From Mycolicibacterium arabiense (GTDB lineage Bacteria; Actinomycetota; Actinomycetes; Mycobacteriales; Mycobacteriaceae), in NCBI RefSeq assembly GCF_010731815.2, contig NZ_AP022593.1, forward strand, positions 1,612,001-1,676,000: DNA of 64,000 nucleotides. Direction: 5' to 3'. The notes below the pieces were generated by a model. It saw only the letters and a list, made by a program, of their open reading frames with translations, did no database searches and was not told the DNA's origin. Positions 27,311 to 43,725 of the stretch are shown in pieces; position 1 is the first letter of the stretch, and each line of letters starts with the position of its first letter. The position numbers and the translations under genes are program-made.

Positions 27311-28612
27311 TCACGCGGCCACCGCCGCTCGCTGGTACGCCGATCGTCCGGCGACCCAGGTCTGCGCATTGGTTCCGCGCAGCGTCATGCCGTCGTACGG
27401 GGTCACCCGGTGGCGGTGCAGCAGCCGGGTTCCATCCACCACGTCGGTGCCGTCGGGGTCGAAGGCGCACAGGTCGGCTCGTAGGCCCACGGCGATCCTG
27501 CCGCGGTCGGCCAGACCTGCCAGCGCTGCGGGACGCTCCGCCATCCAGCGGCTGACTTCGGCGAGCCCGAAGCCTCGTTCGGCGGCATGGGACCACACCG
27601 CGCTGGGACCCAGTTGCAGTGAGCTGATGCCGCCGAACGCGCGGCCGAAGTCACCGTCGCCCTTGAGTTCCGGTGCGCACGGCGAGTGGTCGGAGACCAC
27701 CATGTCGACGGTGCCGTCTAACAGCGCCGCCCAGAGCGGTTCGCGATTTCGGTCGTGCCGGATCGGCGGGCACGCGGTGTACTCGGTGGCGCCGTCGCCG
27801 ACGTCCTCTGCCGCGAAGGTGAGGTAGTGCGGGCACGTCTCGGCGCTGACCCGGATGCCCTCTCTCTTGGCCTGCGCCAGCGCCGGCAGGACGGTCGCGC
27901 TCGAGACGTGCACGACGTGGAGGTGAGCGCCGGTGTCCCTGGCCGTCTCGATCACCAGCGCGACGGCGTCCTCCTCCGCGGCAGGTGGCCGCGACTCCAG
28001 GAACGACGCGTAGTCGACACCGGACGGTGGCGCACTGGCGTCGATGACGGCGTGACTCTCGGCGTGCACCAGCAGCACCGAGTCCAACTCGGCGATCCGT
28101 GCGGCCGCGGACCGGAACCGGGCGGTGTCGAGGTGCCCGAAGTCCGGGTTGCCCGAGTCGGCGAGGAAGCACTTGAATCCGGCGACGCCCGCGGCGGCCA
28201 GTGCCGCGAGGTCGCCGAGGTTGTCCGGCACCACGCCACCCCAGTAGCCGACAGCGACGCGGCAGTTGCCTGCGGCCGCCGCCTGTTTGGCGCGCAGGGC
28301 GGCGACGGTGGTCGTCACCGGAACCGAGTCCAGCGGCATGTCGACCAGCGTCGTGATACCCGCTGCCGCAGCGGCGGCGGTGGCGGTCGCGAAGCCCTCC
28401 CAGTCGGTGCCGGGGTCGTTGACGTGCACGTGGGTGTCGACGAAGCCGGGCAACAGCACGATCCCGGGTGGCAGCACCGTCTCGGTGACCGCGCGATGGT
28501 GCGCGTCCACCGGTGCGACGTCGACGACCGTGCCGCCCGCGATGGCCACCGACGCCGCCCGCAGTTCGCCGTCGAGCAGGACCCGTTCGGCCCGCAGCAC
28601 CAGATCGATCAC
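27311..28612 (-). CDS. allB: Allantoinase
   Basis: A 433-aa cyclic amidohydrolase. The metal-binding motif DTHVHVNDPG (~residue 58), the Lys to be carboxylated in VAGFKCFLAD (~145), HAESHAVID, HVVHVSSATVL and the catalytic Asp in MVVSDHSPCAPELK (~305) are present. It opens the hydantoin ring of allantoin to allantoate. The GTG start overlaps the upstream hydrolase stop by 4 bp (GTGA). An earlier in-frame ATG would lie inside that gene. Confidence 0.95.
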   Translation of the reverse strand: MIDLVLRAERVLLDGELRAASVAIAGGTVVDVAPVDAHHRAVTETVLPPGIVLLPGFVDTHVHVNDPGTDWEGFATATAAAAAAGITTLVDMPLDSVPVTTTVAALRAKQAAAAGNCRVAVGYWGGVVPDNLGDLAALAAAGVAGFKCFLADSGNPDFGHLDTARFRSAAARIAELDSVLLVHAESHAVIDASAPPSGVDYASFLESRPPAAEEDAVALVIETARDTGAHLHVVHVSSATVLPALAQAKREGIRVSAETCPHYLTFAAEDVGDGATEYTACPPIRHDRNREPLWAALLDGTVDMVVSDHSPCAPELKGDGDFGRAFGGISSLQLGPSAVWSHAAERGFGLAEVSRWMAERPAALAGLADRGRIAVGLRADLCAFDPDGTDVVDGTRLLHRHRVTPYDGMTLRGTNAQTWVAGRSAYQRAAVAA

Positions 28613-29451
28613 GGAACGCCGAATCGGTGGTGGAAGTGCTGGGTCATCTCCGGCCACACGTGCGGATCGTGGCCGGGGATCAAGGGGTAGCCCTTGTCCG
28701 CGGCGAGCTTCTTGAGCCTGCGGATCGGTTCGATAGTCTCCTCGGGTTCGACGTCGACGAATCCGCCGATCGCGAGTTCGTGCTCGATGTTCTCGGTCAG
28801 GTCGGCCGCGTCGAACGCGAAGACGTAGCCGTTCGGACCGTCCCCGCCGGTCACCGACTGATCGAGTTCGACGACGAAGCTCTGGTGCCCAGGGGTGTGG
28901 CCGTACGTCGGCACGGCGGTGATCCCCGGCGCGACGTCCGACTCCCCGTCCGCGAGCTGCCAGTCGATGTTCGGGTCGTCGAAGTCCACCCGGAAGATGG
29001 CGTGCCGCTCGGGTTCCGGGTGATTCGACAGTCCGTACTCGAGTTCGCGTCGCTGCGCGTGCACGGGCACCCTGCCTGCGAACAGCTTGAGCCCGCCCGC
29101 GTGATCGGTGTGCAGGTGGGATACGGCGACGAGGTGGATGTCGTCGACGTCCACGCCGATCTCGGCCAGTGACTCCTCGATCGGCTCCCCCGGCCCGGGC
29201 AGCACCGGCTGGTACTCGACGCTCGGGTAGAACCGCCTGCGCAGGTGCGGATCCCGGATCAGCGCCGTGTTGAACCCGGTGTCGAGCAGCACCCAGCCGC
29301 CGTCGGTCTGCAGCAGCACGCCCGGGACGGGTTCACGCATCGACTGGTCCGCCGGAGCCCCGTGCACCGAGACGGACTTCGGCAGGTCCTCCCACCCGAG
29401 GGTCAGGAGGATGATCCGGCGGACACCGCTGCGGTGGACCAGCGTGGCCAT
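28609..29451 (-). CDS. Metallo-beta-lactamase-fold hydrolase, lactonase-like
   Basis: A 280-aa MBL-fold protein. The dinuclear metal motif is SHLHTDHAGG (~residue 115); further ligands are the His in GHTPGHQSF (~195), the Asp of FAFDAADLTEN and PGHDPHVWPEM near the C-terminus. This layout is that of the AttM/AiiA-type N-acyl homoserine lactonases. In a ureide operon the substrate may instead be a lactone or ester breakdown product. It is coupled to the binding-protein gene by stop/start overlap and to allantoinase by GTGA. Confidence 0.85.
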   Translation of the reverse strand: MATLVHRSGVRRIILLTLGWEDLPKSVSVHGAPADQSMREPVPGVLLQTDGGWVLLDTGFNTALIRDPHLRRRFYPSVEYQPVLPGPGEPIEESLAEIGVDVDDIHLVAVSHLHTDHAGGLKLFAGRVPVHAQRRELEYGLSNHPEPERHAIFRVDFDDPNIDWQLADGESDVAPGITAVPTYGHTPGHQSFVVELDQSVTGGDGPNGYVFAFDAADLTENIEHELAIGGFVDVEPEETIEPIRRLKKLAADKGYPLIPGHDPHVWPEMTQHFHHRFGVP

Positions 29452-31031
29452 CAGCCCGCCGACAGTTCGAACAGCCGCAGCGAGTTTGGGTTCGTCACGA
29501 CGTGCGCCTGCTCGACGCCCTTGAGCCAGGGTTGGGCGACCACGAAGTCGTCGACGTCGGCCATGTTGAGCCAGCACCCCGTCTTGATCGCCTCCTCGGC
29601 AGCGGTCGAGAACGGTTCCGAAGCACCGGTTTTCAGGCCCTCGGCGAGCGCGGCGGTGACGGGTGGGGCCGAGCAACCGAGGTAGTTCAGGCCGCCGTCG
29701 GGGTCGAACGAGATGTGTCCCCAGGTGTACGGCGACGGGGCGTCCGGCCACGCGGTGGCGGAGAAGATCTCCGGTGCCGACTGCCCGTCGGTGCCGATCC
29801 AGCCGTAGATCTCCGACGTCGGGTAGCTCTGCACCTTGGCGGTCAGGCCGGCCGCGGCGAGCTGCGTCTGGATCAGGTTGCTGATCAACTGGTTGTCCGG
29901 GTTCGACGAGTCGTAGCCGATGGTGATGGACTTCTGGTCCGGCGGTAGGCCCGCGGCCACCCCGCTGAGTACCGACGGGTCGTGGGTCACGTTCTGCTTG
30001 GCGAACTCCGGGGCCATCATGTTCGGCGGGTACACCTGTTCGGCCTTCTTGCCGCGGCCGAAGTAGGTCTGCTTCACCAGGGCGTCGACGTCGATGGCCT
30101 GCATCACGGCGTTGCGCTTCGCGGGGTCGGTGAGCATGCCCTTGTGCGGGTTCAGGTACAGGTAGTTCGACATCATCGTCGGCAGCGAGTAGTGCGCGTA
30201 CTTGTCGTCGTTCAGGTACTGCTCGACGGCCGAGGACGGCAGGTCGTGCAGGATCGCTGCGATCTGCCCGTTGTTGAACTGCAACTGCTGGGCGGAGACA
30301 TCGGTGATGACGGGGATCTCGACCTGCTCGAAATACGGCTTCTCACCCCAGTACTGGGGGTAGGCCGCCAGCGCGTAGCGCGAGCCCACCTCGGCGGCGG
30401 TCAGGGTGTACGGGCCGGTGCCGAGGTCGTGATTCGTGAGATAGGCCTGGGCGTTGTCGCCGCCCCCGTTCTTCTTCAACCCCTCGGGGCTGACCATCCT
30501 CGGGCCGTACGGCGAGGCGAGGTAGTCGAGGAACGCCGAGTTGGGTGCCTTGAGCGTGATGGTCGCGGCGAAATCACCCTGGGTGGTCACCGATTCGACG
30601 TCCTTGACCATGTACGCCGGACCCTGGTCGACCGCCAGACGACGGTCGAAGGACGCCTTGATGGCCGCCGACGTGAACGGCGTGCCGTCGTGGAACGTGA
30701 CGCCCTCGCGCAGCTTGAACGTGAACACCCGGTGGTCGGGCGATTCGGTCCACTCGGTGGCCAGCAGCGGTTCGATCTCGGGCTTCTCGGTGCCGCCCTT
30801 GTACTGCAGCAGACCCTCGTAGAGGTTGGTGGTGAGCAGCAGACCCTGACCGGCGTAGAAGATGTCGGGGTCCGGCGGCTGCCCCGGGTCCTGCAGGAAC
30901 GACACGTGCAGCACCTTGTCGGTGGGTGCGGCGTTGGGTGCGCCGCCGCCCGAATCGGAACCGCCACATGCGGTGAGCGCCAGCACTGTCGCCGCGCCCA
31001 GTGCGAGGGCGGCGCGCAACGGCTTCTTCAT
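29451..31031 (-). CDS. ABC transporter substrate-binding lipoprotein, SBP family 5
   Basis: A 526-aa lipoprotein: MKKPLRAALALGAATVLALTAC with lipidated Cys22, then a family 5 (peptide/nickel/opine) binding fold. HVSFLQDPGQPPDPDIFY, the family strand FTFKLREGVTFHDGTPFTSA (~105) and LDYLASPYGPRMVSPEG (~170) are clear. It works with the two permeases and the fused ATPase at 31679-35553. A related binding protein lies at 53732-55294. Gene overlaps of 1-4 bp on both sides place it mid-operon. The ligand is probably a ureide, guanidine compound or related nitrogen source (inference). Confidence 0.9.
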   Translation of the reverse strand: MKKPLRAALALGAATVLALTACGGSDSGGGAPNAAPTDKVLHVSFLQDPGQPPDPDIFYAGQGLLLTTNLYEGLLQYKGGTEKPEIEPLLATEWTESPDHRVFTFKLREGVTFHDGTPFTSAAIKASFDRRLAVDQGPAYMVKDVESVTTQGDFAATITLKAPNSAFLDYLASPYGPRMVSPEGLKKNGGGDNAQAYLTNHDLGTGPYTLTAAEVGSRYALAAYPQYWGEKPYFEQVEIPVITDVSAQQLQFNNGQIAAILHDLPSSAVEQYLNDDKYAHYSLPTMMSNYLYLNPHKGMLTDPAKRNAVMQAIDVDALVKQTYFGRGKKAEQVYPPNMMAPEFAKQNVTHDPSVLSGVAAGLPPDQKSITIGYDSSNPDNQLISNLIQTQLAAAGLTAKVQSYPTSEIYGWIGTDGQSAPEIFSATAWPDAPSPYTWGHISFDPDGGLNYLGCSAPPVTAALAEGLKTGASEPFSTAAEEAIKTGCWLNMADVDDFVVAQPWLKGVEQAHVVTNPNSLRLFELSAG

Positions 31032-35553: not shown

Positions 35554-35588
35554 GGAACTCCCGGTGGTGTGTTCGGATGCCTGCTGGC

Positions 35589-35602
35589 CTGTCAGTTGAC
35601 AG
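35589..35602. promoter_or_regulatory. AmtR-type box 1 (ABC/ureide operon side)
   Basis: CTGTC-AGTT-GACAG, an exact match to the CTGTC-N4-GACAG operator described for M. smegmatis AmtR. It lies 36 bp upstream of the ATPase gene start and 94 bp from the second box. Confidence 0.8.
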
Positions 35603-35627
35603 TTTTCCGGCGTCGCGGCCCCGGTGG

Positions 35628-35643
35628 GTGTCGCTGGCGTAAC
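35628..35643. promoter_or_regulatory. Possible GlnR element 1
   Basis: GTGTC-GCTGGC-GTAAC. On the minus strand it reads GTTAC-N6-GACAC, one base off the GTnAC-N6-GnAAC pattern of mycobacterial GlnR sites. It starts 39 bp from AmtR box 1, the same offset as in the carboxylase promoter. Confidence 0.4.
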
Positions 35644-35679
35644 CAAATGACGGCTCGCGTAACCGATGCGTATCGCGCG

Positions 35680-35699
35680 TTTCTGTCGTGTGACAGAAA
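35680..35699. promoter_or_regulatory. AmtR-type box 2 (amtR side)
   Basis: TTTCTGTC-GTGT-GACAGAAA, a perfect 8+4+8 palindrome containing CTGTC-N4-GACAG. It lies about 45 bp upstream of the regulator's start, so autoregulation is likely. Confidence 0.8.
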
Positions 35700-35744
35700 C
35701 GGTAGGGCTACCGCATCGGGCTTTCCATGGTCCACGATGGGTGC

Positions 35745-36434
35745 ATGCCGCTCACCCGGGCCGGGCGTCCCCGACTGCACGACCAGAGACGTCCGGGCAC
35801 CACCGCCCGCGACGAAATCCTGGATGCCGCAGGCGAATTGTTCACCACGCTGGGCTACACGGGCACGTCGACGAGGTCGATCGCCGAGTCGGTCGGGATC
35901 CGGCAGGCCTCGCTGTACCACTACTTCAAGACCAAGGACGACATCCTGTGCGCGCTGCTGGGCCAGACCGTGGCTCCCACGCTGTCGTTCATCCCGAACC
36001 TGCTCGGCGCCGAACCCGCGTTGTCGGCGGCCGAGCATCTGCACGCTCTGGCAGCCTTCGACGGTGACCAGCTGCTGTCGGGTCAGTGGAATCTCGGTGC
36101 GCTGTACCTTCTTCCGGAACTGCGCGACGCCCGGCTCGAGCCGTTCTGGTCCGACCGCGAGCGGCTGCGGCTGCACTACCTGGCGCTCAGCAGCGCGGTC
36201 GTCGACCAGACCGGCGTGCACCAGGCCGCCGCCGATCTGCCGTTCCGGCTCGTCGAGTCACTGGTGAACATGTGGACGGTGCCCGAGGGTCCCGAACGCT
36301 CGGCGCTGCCCATCCACGTGGCCGATGCCTGCCTGCGGGTGCTGGGCATCCCCGACGAAGCCACGCCCGCGGTGCGGCAGCGCAGCCTGCGCGAGGTCGA
36401 GCGCTACGCCCGGGACGGGGCGGCTTCGGCGTAG
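35745..36434 (+). CDS. amtR: AmtR-type TetR regulator of nitrogen-source genes
   Basis: A TetR-family protein (229 aa from the ATG at 35745; an ATG 18 bp upstream is possible). The helix-turn-helix reads FTTLGYTGTSTRSIAESVG then IRQASLYHYFKTKDDIL. It stands between two minus-strand operons whose promoters carry CTGTC-N4-GACAG palindromes, the operator known for AmtR in M. smegmatis, where AmtR represses a urea-degradation operon. The AmtR call rests on this context plus fold, not on an alignment. Its end overlaps the convergent allophanate hydrolase gene by 31 bp. Confidence 0.8.
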   Translation: MPLTRAGRPRLHDQRRPGTTARDEILDAAGELFTTLGYTGTSTRSIAESVGIRQASLYHYFKTKDDILCALLGQTVAPTLSFIPNLLGAEPALSAAEHLHALAAFDGDQLLSGQWNLGALYLLPELRDARLEPFWSDRERLRLHYLALSSAVVDQTGVHQAAADLPFRLVESLVNMWTVPEGPERSALPIHVADACLRVLGIPDEATPAVRQRSLREVERYARDGAASA

Positions 36435-38119
36435 CGCAGGTAGCTCGGCCAGTCGCCGAACTGCGAGATGTCGGCACCGTCGCGCCAGGCGTCGAGAGCA
36501 CAGCCGAACCCGACCACCTCGGTGCCGTCGGCGAGCGTGACGCGGCCGAGCGCCATCGGTGCGGGCAGCGCGGCGAGGAACTCCCCCAGCATGGCCGTTC
36601 CGACCAGCCACAGCTCGCCGCCGATCGACGTGCCGTCCTCGGCCCCGACCCGCATCAGGCCCGGCTTGGGCGGCGTGGTGTCCAGCCGCGCGAAGCGGTA
36701 CAGCGGCGCCGTCCGCGCCGGGCCGAGCCAGCGTGCCCCGCGGTCGGTCAGCTGCCAGGCCAGGGGCTGACCGCGCAGATGAGCGCCCACCACCATCAGT
36801 GGCGTCGCGGAAAGCCCTGCCCGCGTTGGCCAGGGCGCACGGGTCGTGTCGCCGGATCCGGTGAGCAGCCGCGCCACGTCCAGCGCGACGGCGTCGGCTC
36901 CTGACCGCGCCACGACCGTGACGCCGAACTGATCGTCGCCGGCTGTGCCCGCCGGCACCGCGACCGCGCACATGTCCATGAGGTTGCAGAAGTTGGTGTA
37001 GGTGCCGAACCGGGAGTTGACGACGATCGGGTCGTCCGCGACCTCGGCGATCGTGGGATGTTCGGTGGTCGTCGGGACGAGCAGCGCATCGCAGTCACCG
37101 AGTTCGGCGAGTGCCACGGCGGTGAGATCGCGCAGGCGGACGCGGTCGCGCAGCAGCGCGGTGGCAGGCACCGAGCCTGCGGCCGCGACGATCGAGCCGA
37201 CGATCGGGTCCACCTCGGCGCGGTGCGCGTCGACGAACTCACCGACCGCTTCGTGCCGTTCGGCGACCAGGCCACCGTCGTAAAGCAGTCTCGCGGCCTC
37301 GAGAAACGGGGTGAGATCGATCTCCCGCAGTGTCGCACCGGCTTTCACGAGCCGATCTTTGGCCTCGCCGAATGCCGCCCGCCAGGAGCCCGACAGTCCC
37401 GGCAGCTCCCGCGGGACGGCCACCACCGGCGTCTGTGGCGCGGACAGCGGCGCGTCGGGCGGGAACGGTCGCGTCCCGGGCCCGCCTGCCATTACCCCCA
37501 TCACCACGTCGGCCGTGTCGAGGTCGCGTGCGAACACCGTCACGCAGTCATAGGAACGGCAGGCGGGCACGACGCCCTCGGTCGGTACGACGCCCAGGGT
37601 CGGCTTGATGCCGACGATGCCCTGCAGCGCCGCGGGCACCCTGCCCGATCCCGCCGTGTCGGTGCCGATCGCGACGTCCACCAGGCGCAGCGACACCGCG
37701 ACCGCGGATCCAGAACTGGAGCCGCCGGAGATGCGGTCGGGCCTGCGCGAGTCGCGCACGGCCCCGTGCGGGCTGCGCGTCCCCACCAGGCCGGTGGCGA
37801 ACTGGTCGAGGTTGGTGGCGCCGATGACGACCGCGCCTGCCTGCCGCAGGCGTGCGACGACGGGGGCATCGGCGGCGGCGGGCGCCGACGCGTAGGTGGG
37901 GCAGCCCGCGGTGGTCGGCAGCCCGGCGACGTCGACGTTGTTCTTCACCGCCACGGTCGTTCCGGCCAACGGCAGGTCGTCCCCCGCTGCGACCGCGGCG
38001 TCGACGGCGGTGGCATCGGCGAGCGCATCGGTCAACGGGCGCAGGAAGATCCAGATCTCGGGTCGGTTGGCCGCCTCGATCGCGGCGTACGTCGCGCGGA
38101 CCCGTTCGACGGCCGTCAT
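36404..38119 (-). CDS. atzF: Allophanate hydrolase
   Basis: A 571-aa amidase-signature enzyme. The Ser-cisSer-Lys triad is K59 (VAVKNNVD), S134 (SGGSSSGSA) and S158 (GTDTAGSGRVP). The C-terminal ~130 residues (LMVVGAHLRGQPLAWQL to VVGFGCALDAWRDG) are the AtzF-type second domain, which completes allophanate breakdown. It converts allophanate to ammonia and CO2 after the carboxylase step. It overlaps the carboxylase gene by 4 bp and is the last gene of its operon. Confidence 0.96.
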   Translation of the reverse strand: MTAVERVRATYAAIEAANRPEIWIFLRPLTDALADATAVDAAVAAGDDLPLAGTTVAVKNNVDVAGLPTTAGCPTYASAPAAADAPVVARLRQAGAVVIGATNLDQFATGLVGTRSPHGAVRDSRRPDRISGGSSSGSAVAVSLRLVDVAIGTDTAGSGRVPAALQGIVGIKPTLGVVPTEGVVPACRSYDCVTVFARDLDTADVVMGVMAGGPGTRPFPPDAPLSAPQTPVVAVPRELPGLSGSWRAAFGEAKDRLVKAGATLREIDLTPFLEAARLLYDGGLVAERHEAVGEFVDAHRAEVDPIVGSIVAAAGSVPATALLRDRVRLRDLTAVALAELGDCDALLVPTTTEHPTIAEVADDPIVVNSRFGTYTNFCNLMDMCAVAVPAGTAGDDQFGVTVVARSGADAVALDVARLLTGSGDTTRAPWPTRAGLSATPLMVVGAHLRGQPLAWQLTDRGARWLGPARTAPLYRFARLDTTPPKPGLMRVGAEDGTSIGGELWLVGTAMLGEFLAALPAPMALGRVTLADGTEVVGFGCALDAWRDGADISQFGDWPSYLRYAEAAPSRA

Positions 38120-41100
38120 GCGGGGATGTCCGACACGTCGGCCTCGGCGGCACCGACCACGACGAGCGGCGCACCCGGGTCGACCTGGTTGCCCGCCGCC
38201 ACCAGCACGCGGGTCACCGTCCCGTCGGTCGGGGCGGTCAAGACGGTCTCCATCTTCATGGCCTCCAGTGCGAGTAGCGGCTGTCCGGCCGTGACGGGGT
38301 CACCGACGGCGACGTCGACCTTCCACACGCTCGAGGCGAACGGTGCGTCGACCCGCTGTTCGCCGTCGGCCAGGACGAGGTCGGACGTCAGAGGTACGGC
38401 TCGCGACTGCGCCCGTTCCGCACGGTCGAACTCTCCTGCCGCAGCCCAGGCGGCGCGTTCGGTGCCGAACGCAGCGGCCTGTGTCGCGCGGAACCGCGCG
38501 ATCGAGTCGGCGTTGTCGGCCAGGAACCGTTCGTGCTCGGCCAGTGAGAACGTGCCCTCGGTGATGTCGACCGACCCGCGGCCGGCGGCCAGATCGGCAC
38601 GCAGGTCCAGCAATTCGTCGGCCGACACCGGGTACCAGGAGATCCGGTCGAAGAATCGGAGCAGCCACGGGGTGCCCGCTTCGAACGGCGCCGTGTGGCG
38701 GTAACGGCTCCACACCTGCGTGGTGCGCCCGACGAATTGGTAGCCGCCGGGGCCCTCCATGCCGTATATGCACAGATAGGCCCCGCCGATGCCGACGGAG
38801 TTCTCCGCCGTCCAGGTCCTGGCCGGGTTGTACTTGGTGGTGACGAGGCGGTGCCGCGGGTCGAGCGGAGTGGCCACGGGCGCACCGAGGTACACGTCGC
38901 CCAGACCCAGGGTCAGGTACTCCGCGGCGAACACCACGTCCATCACGTCTGCCTGGGACGCCAAACCGTTGACGCGCCGGATGAATTCGATGTTCGACGG
39001 GCACCACGGTGCGTCGTCGCGCACGCCGGAGGTGTAGCGGGCGATGGCTTCCCGGGTCGCGGGATCGTCCCACGACAGCGGCAGCCGGACCGACCGGCTC
39101 GGCACGACCAGTTCCGAGGTGGCGGGGAGTTCGTCCTCCAGCTCGACGAGCAGCCCGAGTAATTTCTCGATCGATAGCCGGTCGGGGTCGACGTGGACCT
39201 GTAGCGAGCGGATGCCGGGCGTGAGGTCCCGGATGCCGTCGACCGTGCCATCGGACATCGCCGTCCGCAACGACTGGTGCAGGGCGTGCACCCGGGCCCG
39301 CAACGCGAGGTCGAGCACCATGTCGCCGTACTCGATCAGCACGTGGTCGTCGCCGTTGCGGCGGTAGGTGACGGCAGGCGCGCGGTCACCGGGGCGCCGG
39401 GCGAGCACGCCGTCGTCGCCGTCCCCCCCGGTGCGCGGCAGGACCGTCGTCATGGCGATCCGGGCCGGCACGTCGCCGACCGAAGGGGCGTCGGCCACCC
39501 GGATCGGGACGAACCGCACCGTGTCCCCGGGACGCAGCTGTCCGAGCTTCCACCGCTCGGCGGAGACCACCGTCACCGGACACGTGAACCCGCCGAGGCT
39601 GGGTCCGTCGGGCCCGAGCAGGATCGGGGTGTCCCCGGTGAAGTCGAGCGCGCCCACCGAGTAGGCGGTGTCGTGGATGTTCGAGGGGTGCAGCCCCGCC
39701 TCACCGCCGTCCGGACGCGCCCATTCGGGGCGCGGCCCCTCGAGCCGAACGCCGGTGCGCGCGGAGTTGAAGTGCACACGGTAGGGGGCGCCGTAGAGCG
39801 TCTCGACGTCGCCGCGGGTGAAGAACTCCGGTGCGCCGTGCGGTCCCTCCGTGACCGCAAGTTCCCACTCCGACGACATGGCGGGCCGCTCCCCGACCGG
39901 GATGGCGGTGCGCGTGCCCGACACCGACGGCGCCGCGCGCAGCACGTCGCCGACGACGAGTTGCCTGCCCCCGTGCCCGCCGAAGCGACCGAGGGTGAAC
40001 GTCGACGCGCTGCCGAGGTAGGCCGGCACGTCGAACCCGCCGTCGACGAGCACGTAGGTCCGCAGGCCCGTCGTCTCGGCCGCTCCCACGTCGAGCACTC
40101 CCCCGGCCGGTACCTCGACGGGCTCCCACATCGGGACCACCGCGTCGTTCACCCGCACCGTGCACTCGGCGCCCGTCACGCAGAACGTGGTCGGGTGCGT
40201 GACGCGAAGCAGGGGTCCTGAGGCCGTGCACTCCAGACCGGGTGCGCCGTAATGGTTTCCGAGCGTCTGGTTGCCGAGACGGAACGACAGGTCGTCCATC
40301 GGCCCGCTGGGGGGAACGCCGACGTCCCACATGCCCACTCGGCCGGGGAGGTCCTGCACCGTCGTCATCAGGCCAGGACGGTCGACGGTGATGCGAGGTC
40401 TCGGATCGCTGACGTCGGCGAGCGTAGCGGTGCTGTGCGTCGCCGCGCGGACGTCGGCGCGGTCGATCGAGGCACGCAGCATCCCGACGTTGACCTCGAT
40501 GCCGTGCAGCACGGTGTCGTCGAGCGCGGCGCCCAGTGCGTCGAGCGCCTCGTCGCGATCGGCGCCCGTCGTGATGACCTTGGCGAGCAGCGGGTCGTAG
40601 AAAGCAGAGACCTCGGTGCCGTCGTCGACCCAGGTGTCGACGCGCACCCCAGCCTGGCCGGGGAACGCGACGGAGGTGAGCGTGCCCGTGCTCGGGCGGT
40701 AGTCACGTGCCGGGTCCTCGGCGTACACGCGTGCCTCGACGGCATGGCCACGCACGGGCACCTCGCCGTCGGGGTGGGCGTCGAGCAGGCCGCGCTCGCC
40801 GCGCGCGAGGCGGAACATCCAGCCCGCCAGGTCGATACCCGTGACCGCCTCGGTCACCGGGTGCTCCACCTGCAGCCGCGCGTTGACCTCGAGGAAGGAC
40901 GCCTCACGGCGCTCGGCGTCGTAGACGAACTCCACGGTGCCCGCCGAGCGATAGGCGACCGACCCGGCGAGCGCGCGTGACGACGAATGCAGAAGTGCGC
41001 GAACGTCGTCCGGCAGGCCCGGTGCCGGGGCCTCCTCGATCACCTTCTGGTTGCGGCGTTGCAGTGAGCAGTCGCGGTCGCCGAGGGACACCACCCGCCC

Positions 41101-41784
41101 CGACCCGTCGCCGAAGATCTGCACCTCGACGTGGCGGGCACGCTCCACGAACCGCTCGACGAACACGCCCGCCGACCCGAAGCTGCGCTCGGCCAGGCGG
41201 GTGACGCGGTCGAAGGCCGCGCGCAGCTCGGCGGCGCTCCGGCACACCTGCATGCCGATGCCGCCGCCACCGCCGGTCGCCTTGAGCATCACCGGGTAGC
41301 CGATGGTGTCGGCGGCGGCGACCGCGTCGGCGGAACCGTCGAGCAGGTCCGAACCTGCGAAGACCGGCACGCCCGCAGCCATGGCCGCGGCACGGGCGGT
41401 GTGCTTGGTGCCGAACACGCGCAGCTGGTGTGGTGTCGGTCCGACGAACGTCAGGCCGGCGTCTTCGACCATGTCGGCGAAATCGGCGTCCTCGGAGAGG
41501 AAGCCGTATCCCGGATGGATCATGCCGGCGCCGGACGCCAGCGCCGCTGCGACGATGGCGTCGGCACGTAGGTAGCTCTCGCTCGGCGCGGCGGGGCCCA
41601 GTCGCACGGCGTGGTCGGCGAGCAGGACGTGCGGCGAGCCGCGGTCGGCGTCGGAGAAGACCGCCACGGTGCGCAGGCCCAGCAATTGGGCCGCGCGCAC
41701 CAGCCGGACGGCGATCTCGCCGCGGTTGGCGACGAGGACGGTGCCGGCCGACTGCTCCTCGCCCGAGCGCTCGTCGGTGCTCAT
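38116..41784 (-). CDS. Biotin-dependent urea/guanidine carboxylase
   Basis: A 1222-aa single-chain carboxylase. An N-terminal biotin carboxylase (VLVANRGEIAVRLVRAAQ; ATP-grasp GGGGGIGMQV; EVNARLQVEHPVTE) is followed by the KipA/AHS2 domain (~485-780) and the KipI/AHS1 domain (~800-1080). The C-terminal biotinyl domain has Lys1177 in LALEAMKMETVL. It uses ATP and bicarbonate to carboxylate urea to allophanate. Close relatives with paired DUF1989 genes, as here, act on guanidine. The two activities cannot be separated by eye. It is linked by 4-bp overlaps to genes on both sides. Confidence 0.93.
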   Translation of the reverse strand: MSTDERSGEEQSAGTVLVANRGEIAVRLVRAAQLLGLRTVAVFSDADRGSPHVLLADHAVRLGPAAPSESYLRADAIVAAALASGAGMIHPGYGFLSEDADFADMVEDAGLTFVGPTPHQLRVFGTKHTARAAAMAAGVPVFAGSDLLDGSADAVAAADTIGYPVMLKATGGGGGIGMQVCRSAAELRAAFDRVTRLAERSFGSAGVFVERFVERARHVEVQIFGDGSGRVVSLGDRDCSLQRRNQKVIEEAPAPGLPDDVRALLHSSSRALAGSVAYRSAGTVEFVYDAERREASFLEVNARLQVEHPVTEAVTGIDLAGWMFRLARGERGLLDAHPDGEVPVRGHAVEARVYAEDPARDYRPSTGTLTSVAFPGQAGVRVDTWVDDGTEVSAFYDPLLAKVITTGADRDEALDALGAALDDTVLHGIEVNVGMLRASIDRADVRAATHSTATLADVSDPRPRITVDRPGLMTTVQDLPGRVGMWDVGVPPSGPMDDLSFRLGNQTLGNHYGAPGLECTASGPLLRVTHPTTFCVTGAECTVRVNDAVVPMWEPVEVPAGGVLDVGAAETTGLRTYVLVDGGFDVPAYLGSASTFTLGRFGGHGGRQLVVGDVLRAAPSVSGTRTAIPVGERPAMSSEWELAVTEGPHGAPEFFTRGDVETLYGAPYRVHFNSARTGVRLEGPRPEWARPDGGEAGLHPSNIHDTAYSVGALDFTGDTPILLGPDGPSLGGFTCPVTVVSAERWKLGQLRPGDTVRFVPIRVADAPSVGDVPARIAMTTVLPRTGGDGDDGVLARRPGDRAPAVTYRRNGDDHVLIEYGDMVLDLALRARVHALHQSLRTAMSDGTVDGIRDLTPGIRSLQVHVDPDRLSIEKLLGLLVELEDELPATSELVVPSRSVRLPLSWDDPATREAIARYTSGVRDDAPWCPSNIEFIRRVNGLASQADVMDVVFAAEYLTLGLGDVYLGAPVATPLDPRHRLVTTKYNPARTWTAENSVGIGGAYLCIYGMEGPGGYQFVGRTTQVWSRYRHTAPFEAGTPWLLRFFDRISWYPVSADELLDLRADLAAGRGSVDITEGTFSLAEHERFLADNADSIARFRATQAAAFGTERAAWAAAGEFDRAERAQSRAVPLTSDLVLADGEQRVDAPFASSVWKVDVAVGDPVTAGQPLLALEAMKMETVLTAPTDGTVTRVLVAAGNQVDPGAPLVVVGAAEADVSDIPA

Positions 41785-42419
41785 TCTGCGCCCGGTCGGG
41801 TGACGATCATCCGCACCGGCGTCGGGTCGAATGCGTTGCACGGGTTGTTGATCTGCGGGCAGTTCGACACCAGCACCAGGGTGTCGACGTCGGCGCGCAG
41901 CGCGACGCGCTTGCCCGGACCCGACAGTCCGTCGACGATGCCCAGGGCGCCGTCCGGGTCGACCGGCACGTTCATGAACCAGTTGATGTTGCTCGCCAGG
42001 TCGCGCGCCCCGAGGCCGTACCGGGCGCCTTCGAGCAGGAAGTTCTCCATGCAGCCGTGCTGGGCACGGGTGTGCTGGCCGTAGCGCAGCGTGTTGGACT
42101 CCTTCGAGCACGCTCCGCCGAGGGTGTCGTGCACGCCCACTTCGTCGTCGACCACCGTCATCAGTGCCGCACCGGTGTCGGCCCGCAGTACCGACCCGGT
42201 GGTCAGCGCGATGCGGCCCTGTCTGCTGATGGTCTCCTGCGCGGAGTACCGCACCGACGTGTCGGCTGCGGCATACAGCAGACAGTCCACGGCCTGGTTG
42301 CCTGCGAGGTCGACGATCGTGAGTACGTCGCCGGCTTTCACCACCGCCGACCAGGACGCCCGCGCGGGGACTGTCTGGTCGAGAACCACGGCGCCGGGCA
42401 CGAGCGCGGGGGCGGTCAC
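41781..42419 (-). CDS. DUF1989 urea-amidolyase-associated protein 2 (possible carboxyguanidine deiminase subunit)
   Basis: A 212-aa DUF1989 protein. IVDLAGNQAVDCLLYAA (~45), HDTLGGACSKESNTLRYG (~105) with a conserved Cys, NWFMNVPVDPDG and the terminal VSNCPQINNPCNAFDP metal/Cys motif are visible. In guanidine-degrading bacteria the UAAP1/UAAP2 pair forms the deiminase turning carboxyguanidine into allophanate. The GTG start overlaps the UAAP1 stop by 4 bp, and the stop overlaps the carboxylase ATG likewise. Confidence 0.88.
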   Translation of the reverse strand: MTAPALVPGAVVLDQTVPARASWSAVVKAGDVLTIVDLAGNQAVDCLLYAAADTSVRYSAQETISRQGRIALTTGSVLRADTGAALMTVVDDEVGVHDTLGGACSKESNTLRYGQHTRAQHGCMENFLLEGARYGLGARDLASNINWFMNVPVDPDGALGIVDGLSGPGKRVALRADVDTLVLVSNCPQINNPCNAFDPTPVRMIVTRPGAE

Positions 42420-43276
42420 AGGACGCCCCGTGCGATCAGGTCGGCGTCGGTGTTCGCCAGTGCCTGAACGTGTTCCGGGCCGAGCGGGCCGACCAGTTCG
42501 GTGAGGCGACCGAGGTCGTCGTCGGCCGACCAGGCGTGCACCCGCAGCGGTGAGCACGTGAACTGCGGCCGCGGATCCAGCGGATGAGCCGTGTTGGCCA
42601 GCAGCACGATCGCGTCGACGTGCAGCAGCAGGTCGACGGCCGTGTCCGGCCCGGCCGAACCGGTCCAGCGCAGGCTCCCGTCGACGTCGACGCGCACACC
42701 CTTGAAGAACGACAGCGACGGGGGCAGATCTCGTTGCGAGAGACCGTGTTTGAGTGCGCCGAGGAGGAGCAGCTCCCGCCCGGCGGGCGACGGGGATTCT
42801 GGCGCCGAGGCACCGTAGCGGGCCAGGTTGCCCTCTCCGGTGGTGGTGCCCGCGAGTGCGTCGTGCGCCGTCGAGGTGTCGGCGACGATGGTCGCCAGGA
42901 CGCGGCCGAAGCCACTGAGCAGCGGATGCCCCGTCGACGGGTAGGCCTGCCATGGGACCTTGACGGTGTCGGCGATGTTGAGCCGCTCGTGGGGCGCGTC
43001 GGCGCGATGCAGGAGTAGGTGCGCACATGCGTCGCCAAAGGGGTCGGCCAGGCGGATGCGGGTGCCGCGGGCCAGCACAGCCGTCGAATAGCCGCCCGAG
43101 GCAACGACTTCCGACCACACCAGGCGGTCGGCCGGGACGTCGGCGGGCACCGTGGTGCTGGCCGTGGCGGGCACGTGGCGCATCTCGTCCACCGTGCGTC
43201 CGTGCTGGGCGCGGGCATGGGCCTTCGCGCCGGCGGTCGTCGCCGTACTCGTGACGGTGGTCAGGTCGCTGGTCAC
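42416..43276 (-). CDS. DUF1989 urea-amidolyase-associated protein 1 (possible carboxyguanidine deiminase subunit)
   Basis: A 286-aa DUF1989 protein and first gene of the carboxylase operon. After a variable 40-residue lead it shows LADPFGDACAHLLLHRADAPHERLNIADTVK (conserved Asp/Cys/His), then HDALAGTTTGEGN and SLSFFKGVRVDVDGSL. It probably forms a heteromer with UAAP2. The start lies 25 bp from an AmtR-type palindrome and 64 bp from a GlnR-like element. A urea-only role is possible, but DUF1989 pairs are not needed for urea breakdown. Confidence 0.88.
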   Translation of the reverse strand: MTSDLTTVTSTATTAGAKAHARAQHGRTVDEMRHVPATASTTVPADVPADRLVWSEVVASGGYSTAVLARGTRIRLADPFGDACAHLLLHRADAPHERLNIADTVKVPWQAYPSTGHPLLSGFGRVLATIVADTSTAHDALAGTTTGEGNLARYGASAPESPSPAGRELLLLGALKHGLSQRDLPPSLSFFKGVRVDVDGSLRWTGSAGPDTAVDLLLHVDAIVLLANTAHPLDPRPQFTCSPLRVHAWSADDDLGRLTELVGPLGPEHVQALANTDADLIARGVL

Positions 43277-43300
43277 ACCACACTCCCGGTTCGACTATTT

Positions 43301-43314
43301 CTGTCGGTTGATAG
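43301..43314. promoter_or_regulatory. AmtR-type box 3 (carboxylase operon side)
   Basis: CTGTC-GGTT-GATAG, one base away from the CTGTC-N4-GACAG operator, 25 bp upstream of the UAAP1 start. Like box 1 it is followed by AGTTTTC-type sequence. Confidence 0.7.
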
Positions 43315-43339
43315 TTTTCGCCTCCCAGCAGCGCCGGTG

Positions 43340-43355
43340 GTTGCCCGCGTGTAAC
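43340..43355. promoter_or_regulatory. Possible GlnR element 2
   Basis: On the minus strand this reads GTTAC-ACGCGG-GCAAC, a full match to the GTnAC-N6-GnAAC form of GlnR sites. It is oriented toward the carboxylase operon and starts 39 bp from box 3, the same offset as element 1 from box 1. Confidence 0.55.
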
Positions 43356-43395
43356 CGATCACGCGGACTGCGTTAACAACGAGAGACGGGTGTGT

Positions 43396-43409
43396 CTGTC
43401 ATGTGACAG
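43396..43409. promoter_or_regulatory. AmtR-type box 4 (YciI side)
   Basis: CTGTC-ATGT-GACAG, an exact operator match, 95 bp from box 3 and 41 bp before the YciI-like gene start. Confidence 0.8.
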
Positions 43410-43449
43410 GTATTCGGTCGCCCCGGCGCTGGGCCGATAGGGTGATCGC

Positions 43450-43725
43450 GTGTTCCACGTCCTCACGCTGACCTATGTGCAACCACTCGACGTCATCGAT
43501 CAGACGCGACCGGCCCACCTCGAGTGGATCGACGCTGAGATCGCGTCCGGCCGCCTGATCCTGGCCGGCCGGCAGGAATCGGGCGCTGGTGGCGTGCTGG
43601 TCACCGGAGACATCACCGCCGAGGAGGCCGACGACCTGATCGCGAACGACCCGTACCAACTGGCGGGCCTCGTCGACTACGAGCGGGTCGGCTTCAACGC
43701 CGGGAAGCGTGCGCCAGGTCTCTGA
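43450..43725 (+). CDS. YciI-like protein
   Basis: A 91-aa YciI-family protein with a GTG start. The conserved HLEWIDAEIASGRLILAGRQ region contains the family His, and later comes ITAEEADDLIANDPYQLAGLVDYE with the characteristic acidic residues. YciI folds as a ferredoxin-like dimer and is sometimes an enzyme accessory domain. Function unknown. It lies divergently from the carboxylase operon with an AmtR-type box 41 bp upstream, so it may belong to the same regulon. Confidence 0.85.
   Translation: MFHVLTLTYVQPLDVIDQTRPAHLEWIDAEIASGRLILAGRQESGAGGVLVTGDITAEEADDLIANDPYQLAGLVDYERVGFNAGKRAPGL

Follow-up and report, generated by a model that had tools for sequence, protein, structure and literature searches.

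Why should two promoters of one nitrogen island keep a pair of predicted AmtR operators at an almost constant distance? The question is raised by a 64,000-nucleotide stretch of DNA from the soil mycobacterium Mycolicibacterium arabiense (GCF_010731815.2, contig NZ_AP022593.1, positions 1,612,001 to 1,676,000; hereafter, the window), in which two elements, P1 between an ABC/ureide gene cluster and amtR and P2 between urea-carboxylase genes and the gene of a YciI-related small protein, each carry two AmtR boxes with GlnR-like motifs in the spacer. The first-pass annotation of this DNA had suggested a loop formed by AmtR with GlnR inside it. Our analysis points to another arrangement, to which we assign a probability of about 0.57: each element would be a composite promoter facing left, consisting of a GlnR array, an AmtR box 1 on the core promoter, and an AmtR box 2 nested in the distal GlnR pair.

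Architecture of P1 and P2

The coordinates of both elements are listed in Table 1. The box-to-box spacings of 94 bp (P1) and 95 bp (P2) given by the first-pass annotation are correct, as is its 39-bp offset from box 1 to a GlnR-like element at 35628 and 43340. All four boxes had been written as CTGTC-N4-GACAG palindromes, which is exact at 35589, 35683, and 43396, and the box at 43301 has one mismatch. The GlnR-like element had been described as GTnAC-N6-GnAAC; in both plus-strand copies the first half is without its A (GTGTC, GTTGC), and the motif is found on the minus strand, where 43340 to 43355 is a perfect GnnAC-N6-GnAAC and 35628 to 35643 is one base off.

In the 94- and 95-bp spacing classes, leftward GNNAC half-sites are arranged in 11-bp pairs, six half-sites in P1 (which has an extra overlapping match at +41) and four in P2. 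They lie at offsets 0/11 (distal pair), 20/31 (middle pair), and then 51/62 in the 94-bp class or 52/63 in the 95-bp class, those at 0/11 and 52/63 being the strong ones in P2 elements. Within the window, the P1 distal and P2 proximal pairs match the GlnR consensus perfectly, the P2 middle pair is degenerate, and the others are GNNAC in register. Rightward, P1 has three half-sites and P2 has two, with no two of them spaced by 11 bp. The predicted GlnR array faces left, toward the ABC and urea-carboxylase operons. A symmetric layout, with a central GlnR site serving two divergent promoters, was rejected, as the 11-bp pairs run leftward only. By eye, no convincing conserved -10 element was found beside each box, and for this reason the promoter positions given here are putative.

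Single motifs are not enriched: the window has 32 AmtR boxes against 45 expected (up to two mismatches) and 8 perfect GnnAC-N6-GnAAC pairs against 7.6 expected, and the genome has 185 AmtR boxes against 181 for the reversed pattern (up to one mismatch; 12 are exact). The putative GlnR sites are therefore supported by conservation, not by motif enrichment. The complete six-half-site array fits P1 perfectly and P2 with two mismatches, with no other match at up to three mismatches in the 64 kb, although the P2 match is only semi-independent because the pattern was derived from P1. The two spacers of the window are identical at 43 of 80 positions (maximum of 38 in 5,000 mononucleotide shuffles), and on this basis P1 and P2 look homologous.

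AmtR box 2 is nested in the distal GlnR pair

For comparison with relatives, 98 loci with an AmtR match were collected, and the 79 that also have the ABC gene were kept as P1 loci; of the 19 set aside, 16 lack the ABC gene and 3 are copies from the window's own genome. As the 79 include a few species twice, they hold 70 distinct elements. For P2, 40 elements were collected without using box 2 as a criterion, of which the 7 that have lost box 2 were excluded from the nesting count. The distal pair, which reads GTCAC-N6-GAAAC or GACAC on box 2, has both halves as GNNAC in 65 of the 70 distinct P1 elements and 29 of the 33 P2 elements; that is, the predicted activator and repressor sites overlap as in a competitive promoter. 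The same count was 0/70 and 0/33 in each of the controls (box 2 read rightward; box 1 read either way). Box 2, unlike box 1, conserves the two bases beyond the AmtR core through which the GlnR pair is formed, a G at -4 and a G at the third N. In addition, a search of 61 genomes found the nested motif GTTTCTRTCNNGTGACAG in 12, with a single copy per genome that always belonged to an element of this kind.

Box spacing is conserved and changes in steps

The spacing is 94 bp in 36, 95 bp in 30, and 106 bp in 13 of the 79 P1 loci, with up to two mismatches allowed in box calls. We then searched 396 genomes of the window's genus for box pairs 80 to 110 bp apart, with the reversed pattern as a control, and obtained 132 matches in 114 genomes and none for the control; unlike single boxes, the paired composite is beyond chance. 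With P1 and P2 labels assigned by eye (neighbors were checked for 10 matches only), P1-type lengths are 94 (36 matches), 95 (43), 96 (3), 106 (18), and 107 bp (1), and P2-type lengths are 95 (30) and 84 bp (1), so that only 84, 94 to 96, and 106 to 107 bp are seen within the allowed range. No box pair was found 111 to 141 bp apart in 158 genomes of the genus. An order-level search of 160 genomes turned up a pair 80 to 110 bp apart in three, each from the window's genus, and in none of the 145 genomes from other genera. The check on orthologues that the first-pass annotation had set thus came out in its favor: orthologues retain the spacing, and where it differs it does so by roughly one helical turn at a time.

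Two groups among the loci without the ABC gene were also inspected. In Gordonia (L110 to L114), box pairs with 0 to 1 mismatch stand 32 bp apart, or about three turns, upstream of an AmtR homologue in 5/5 loci, without the mycobacterial layout. The 350 bp before amtR contain one box (up to one mismatch) in 4 of the other 11 loci and none in 7.

The positions of the length changes are informative. In P1, GTRTC follows box 1 at 39 bp in 79/79 loci and GTAAC precedes box 2 at 24 bp in 77/79, and the variation is confined to the middle segment between GTRTC and GTAAC, which measures 31, 32, or 43 bp. In P2, the distance from box 1 to the proximal GlnR pair is identical in 40/40 genomes, though 10 to 30 bp was allowed. 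Length changes lie between GlnR pairs and amount to 1 bp or 11 to 12 bp, the half-site step being 11 bp; the single 84-bp case (L069) is 11 bp shorter than L071, again between GlnR pairs.

Could the fixed spacing merely reflect shared ancestry or a low rate of insertions and deletions (indels), with no functional phasing? The apparent homology of P1 and P2 would agree with this, as would the tree of the 79 AmtR rows, which needs as few as 6 length changes, so that independent length events are few (the 106-bp length has two origins on the best tree and no fewer than one overall). The flanks argue the other way: across 77 loci the ABC gene lies at 34 different distances from box 1, and across 18 genomes the YciI-like start lies at 13, whereas the distances between boxes are restricted to the few lengths given above over 114 genomes. 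We regard this explanation as very improbable.

Helical phase bears on the loop. In that reading, AmtR dimers on boxes 1 and 2 would touch and close a repression loop of 84 to 107 bp, which GlnR in the spacer would oppose. The two operators are indeed helically phased at the lengths observed, which correspond to roughly 8, 9, and 10 turns with deviations of -17 to 69 degrees (10.5 bp per turn), and the lack of pairs at 111 to 141 bp is in keeping with a loop. The six distinct lengths are also clustered relative to draws from 80 to 110 bp (P values of 0.0009 for a 10.5-bp and 0.00004 for an 11-bp period, to be taken only as a guide because the lengths are not independent draws). However, they fit a period of 11.0 bp (0.925) better than one of 10.5 bp (0.874), the steps measure 11 to 12 bp, the two halves of the element are each rigid on their own with the indels falling between GlnR pairs, and a loop does not need a GlnR pair on box 2. 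A simpler cause for the phasing can be seen in the GlnR pairs, which lie on one face with indels of 1 or 11 to 12 bp between them. Repression loops of the lac/gal type have two operators about nine turns apart; they differ from the present case in that the phasing here would be explained by the activator array, and we saw no evidence for AmtR tetramers, none of which has been reported to our knowledge. AmtR is thought to act as a dimer, as stated for Corynebacterium glutamicum, and a literature search of titles and the opening parts of abstracts of papers with both terms found no paper on AmtR looping. The earlier claim is partly supported: GlnR sites do lie in the spacer, but not only there, since the distal pair coincides with box 2. 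A loop is compatible with the data but unnecessary, and we consider it unlikely. A variant in which the repressor loop and a GlnR filament are exclusive states of the same 110-bp DNA, the filament including the half-sites under box 2 and springing the loop open, appears similarly doubtful.

Box 2 is often kept without a close right-hand gene

A further alternative is that each divergent promoter has one AmtR box of its own, box 1 for the left operon and box 2 for the right-hand gene, with the spacing fixed by shared GlnR sites only. P2 offers a natural experiment, as its right-hand gene varies. With a uniform cutoff (gene start within 100 bp of box 2), 23 of the 40 P2 elements have such a gene and 22 of these keep box 2, as one box per promoter would predict. 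Five related genomes without the YciI-like gene (L187, L197, L202, L204, and L216) keep box 1 and have a decaying box 2 (2 to 4 mismatches), and AmtR is autoregulated in M. smegmatis; both points fit the same explanation. Nonetheless, box 2 is kept in 11 of the 17 elements lacking a close gene start; the 6 losses are the five of this clade and G207. The 11 include one element with a broken YciI-like gene (G183) and six in which a right-hand gene starts 140 to 501 bp beyond box 2: G340, G224, and G408 (140 to 166 bp, just after TAGGAT), and G002, G076, and G014 (YciI-like start at 156, 147, and 501 bp). The other four belong to the five elements near which no right-hand gene was found by open reading frame inspection and a simple codon score: G092, G079, and G409 (in all three the neighbor runs toward box 2), G119, and G207. 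In all but G207, box 2 is exact at +95, a point that also accords with a function of the paired boxes such as a loop, and among these four the box core is identical in 6/6 pairs, against 24 to 32% identity over the 90 bp beyond. Since box 2 is kept in four of five elements without a nearby right-hand gene, it probably serves the left operon; its more frequent loss where no close divergent gene exists suggests that it also serves the right-hand gene. The paired GNNAC half-sites, running leftward only, likewise disagree with one box per promoter, an explanation that we hold to be quite unlikely.

One of the 10 neighbor-checked matches, L221 (G288:C161), is P1-type but not located at ABC/amtR. 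It lies upstream of an ABC solute-binding protein gene (Pfam SBP_bac_5), is adjoined by neither an amtR nor an ABC ATPase match, and is possibly a third target. No right-hand open reading frame passing the coding filter occurs before +1310, which the loop reading can also claim in its favor.

Proposed mechanism

We propose that each element is one composite promoter facing left, toward the ABC/ureide genes in P1 and the urea-carboxylase genes in P2. Under nitrogen shortage, GlnR would bind the head-to-tail row of paired GNNAC half-sites and bring RNA polymerase to the left promoter. With nitrogen in ample supply, AmtR would repress at two points: on box 1, at about the position of the core promoter, it would block the polymerase, and on box 2, over the distal GlnR pair, it would keep GlnR off that site. 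AmtR and GlnR probably compete for the same DNA at these promoters. In this proposal the spacing of the boxes is held constant by the need for GlnR dimers to stack in register along a single face of the DNA; it could then change by 1 bp or by the half-site step of about 11 bp. Through box 2, amtR would also be autoregulated in P1, and the right-hand gene of P2 would probably be controlled to some extent.

The anatomy of the elements, their register and conservation, the nesting, and the indel positions are observed directly. Several points weigh against the composite promoter. Occupancy by GlnR and AmtR, the promoter positions, and competition at box 2 are predictions from the sequence. The middle pair is weak across P2 elements, and in the 106-bp class the array is partly changed, with the first half-site on box 2 kept in 75% of 12. 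The outer distance from box 2 to amtR is less variable than that on the other side, with just 7 values in 79 loci, which would also suit shared ancestry. Box 2 is lost in 6/17 P2 elements without a close right-hand gene versus 1/23 with one (Fisher P = 0.03, kinship ignored), so part of its role in P2 seems to belong to the right-hand gene; the losses are clumped in the tree (38 of the 40 P2 rows, the two with too little UAAP1 sequence being dropped), and an independent-pairs sign test gave a median P of 1 in a small sample. Because P1 elements adjoin amtR, the GNNAC sequences in P1 box 2 could in part reflect the needs of the amtR promoter.

Genes around the two elements

Table 1. Sites of the P1 and P2 elements and the genes flanking them (window coordinates)
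Feature	Coordinates	Strand	Basis
P1 AmtR box 1, CTGTCAGTTGACAG, exact CTGTC-N4-GACAG, followed by TTTTC	35589..35602		Pattern scan; present in 79/79 loci
P1 proximal GlnR pair, leftward GTTAC-N6-GACAC	35628..35643	-	GTRTC at +39 from box 1 in 79/79 loci
P1 middle GlnR pair, leftward GATAC-N6-GTTAC	35659..35674	-	GTAAC 24 bp from box 2 in 77/79 loci; half-sites 20/31
P1 distal GlnR pair, leftward GTCAC-N6-GAAAC, superposed on AmtR box 2	35679..35694	-	Perfect consensus match
P1 AmtR box 2, CTGTCGTGTGACAG within GTTTCTGTCGTGTGACAGAAAC, exact CTGTC-N4-GACAG	35683..35696		Pattern scan; comparison of loci
P2 AmtR box 1, CTGTCGGTTGATAG, one mismatch (GATAG), followed by TTTTC	43301..43314		Pattern scan
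P2 proximal GlnR pair, leftward GTTAC-N6-GCAAC, perfect consensus	43340..43355	-	Pattern scan
P2 middle GlnR pair, degenerate, leftward GTCTC-N6-TTAAC	43372..43387	-	Same register as P1
P2 distal GlnR pair, leftward GTCAC-N6-GACAC, superposed on AmtR box 2	43392..43407	-	GNNAC halves
P2 AmtR box 2, CTGTCATGTGACAG, exact CTGTC-N4-GACAG	43396..43409		Pattern scan
Fused OppD/OppF-type ABC ATPase, first gene of the ABC/ureide cluster, left gene of P1	33553..35553	-	Pfam ABC_tran (two), oligo_HPY; NCBIfam peptide/nickel ATPases
amtR, TetR-family AmtR, right gene of P1	35727..36434	+	TetR_N; best PDB match 5e57 AmtR, E 1e-52
Allophanate hydrolase	36404..38119	-	Amidase and AH_C; TIGR02713 over cutoff
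Urea carboxylase	38116..42111	-	Biotin_carb_N/C, CPSase_L_D2, CT_A_B, CT_C_D, Biotin_lipoyl
Urea amidolyase associated protein UAAP1, left gene of P2	42416..43276	-	DUF1989; TIGR03425 over cutoff
YciI-related small protein, right gene of P2 here	43450..43725	+	Pfam YCII over cutoff; homologues by tblastn

Beyond the ABC ATPase, domain searches identified on the same strand a permease, a solute-binding protein, a metallo-β-lactamase (MBL)-fold protein, an allantoinase, and an allantoicase. The MBL-fold protein (28609 to 29751; Pfam Lactamase_B), encoded between the allantoinase and solute-binding genes, distantly resembles AttM/AiiA lactonases and scores far below the cutoffs of those families. 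The amtR gene may start at ATG 35745 instead, and the true urea carboxylase start is probably inside the open reading frame listed. The island amtR encodes the only close AmtR found in its own genome (next match, E 1.8e-13); several relatives carry a second AmtR, about 50 to 58% identical. GlnR is encoded in the genome as well, by an open reading frame in L240 that matches PDB 4o1h, named GlnR (E 9e-34), and PDB 8hih (E 1.7e-125), whose entry name reads only "Transcriptional regulatory protein" and which we take to be the M. tuberculosis GlnR.

In five loci (L219, L222, L226, L227, and L228), a YciI-like gene directly follows amtR; the urea-carboxylase cassette with its P2 promoter may therefore have been inserted between amtR and the YciI-like gene in the lineage of the window.

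Relation to known systems

The closest likeness is the M. smegmatis urea-degradation promoter of MSMEG_2184 to MSMEG_2189, which shares the regulators and the pathway and for which the published passages covered report AmtR binding and GlnR dependence; it differs in that amtR lies elsewhere (MSMEG_4300) and an amino acid permease gene comes first. In those passages, msmeg_2184 is expressed less in the presence of AmtR, which binds DNA upstream of the gene, and GlnR is needed for nitrogen control: without AmtR the operon rises and is still nitrogen controlled, and without GlnR control is lost. The autoregulation of amtR is described there as independent of GlnR. A GlnR chromatin immunoprecipitation peak (peak 17) lies between the divergent MSMEG_2183 and MSMEG_2184, and the reported GlnR effect is 38.8-fold on MSMEG_2184 versus 2.3-fold on MSMEG_2183, a one-sidedness that would fit a one-way array at that promoter. 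The published M. smegmatis data fit the proposed mechanism.

Other GlnR promoters resemble parts of the layout. As described in the passages available, the Streptomyces coelicolor amtB promoter has several GlnR boxes with the protected site of another regulator among them; it differs in having three GlnR boxes and PhoP, not a TetR-family protein, as the competitor, and those passages describe no second repressor box. The Amycolatopsis nas promoter appears to be the source of the 16-bp b1-b2 spacer mentioned in the part of a review that we draw on, a gap between GlnR half-sites similar to the 15 to 16 bp between the middle and proximal pairs here, and the passage on the nas GlnR sites differs in containing no AmtR. 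According to the same review, four DNA-binding domains of GlnR sit head-to-tail on the DNA and the receiver domains form a tetramer. Competition between AmtR and GlnR is stated in a review and in one cited form of the Petridis 2016 title. No description of nested AmtR/GlnR sites or of AmtR looping was found in the accessible parts of a literature that included PMC5137332, PMC4222082, PMC3662644, PMC10704036, PMC4617892, PMC5826061, and PMC2723105, with most subscription journals outside the search. The regulators, the motif, and AmtR/GlnR competition are thus known; the nesting, the array of GlnR pairs, and the stepwise spacing are new.

An AmtR palindrome inside a GlnR pair would provide a physical site of conflict for AmtR/GlnR competition, of which none is described in the literature searched, to the extent covered. 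The nesting and the register are directly testable with short DNA variants. From the 11-bp steps it would seem that the register of GlnR dimers across a promoter is maintained in evolution.

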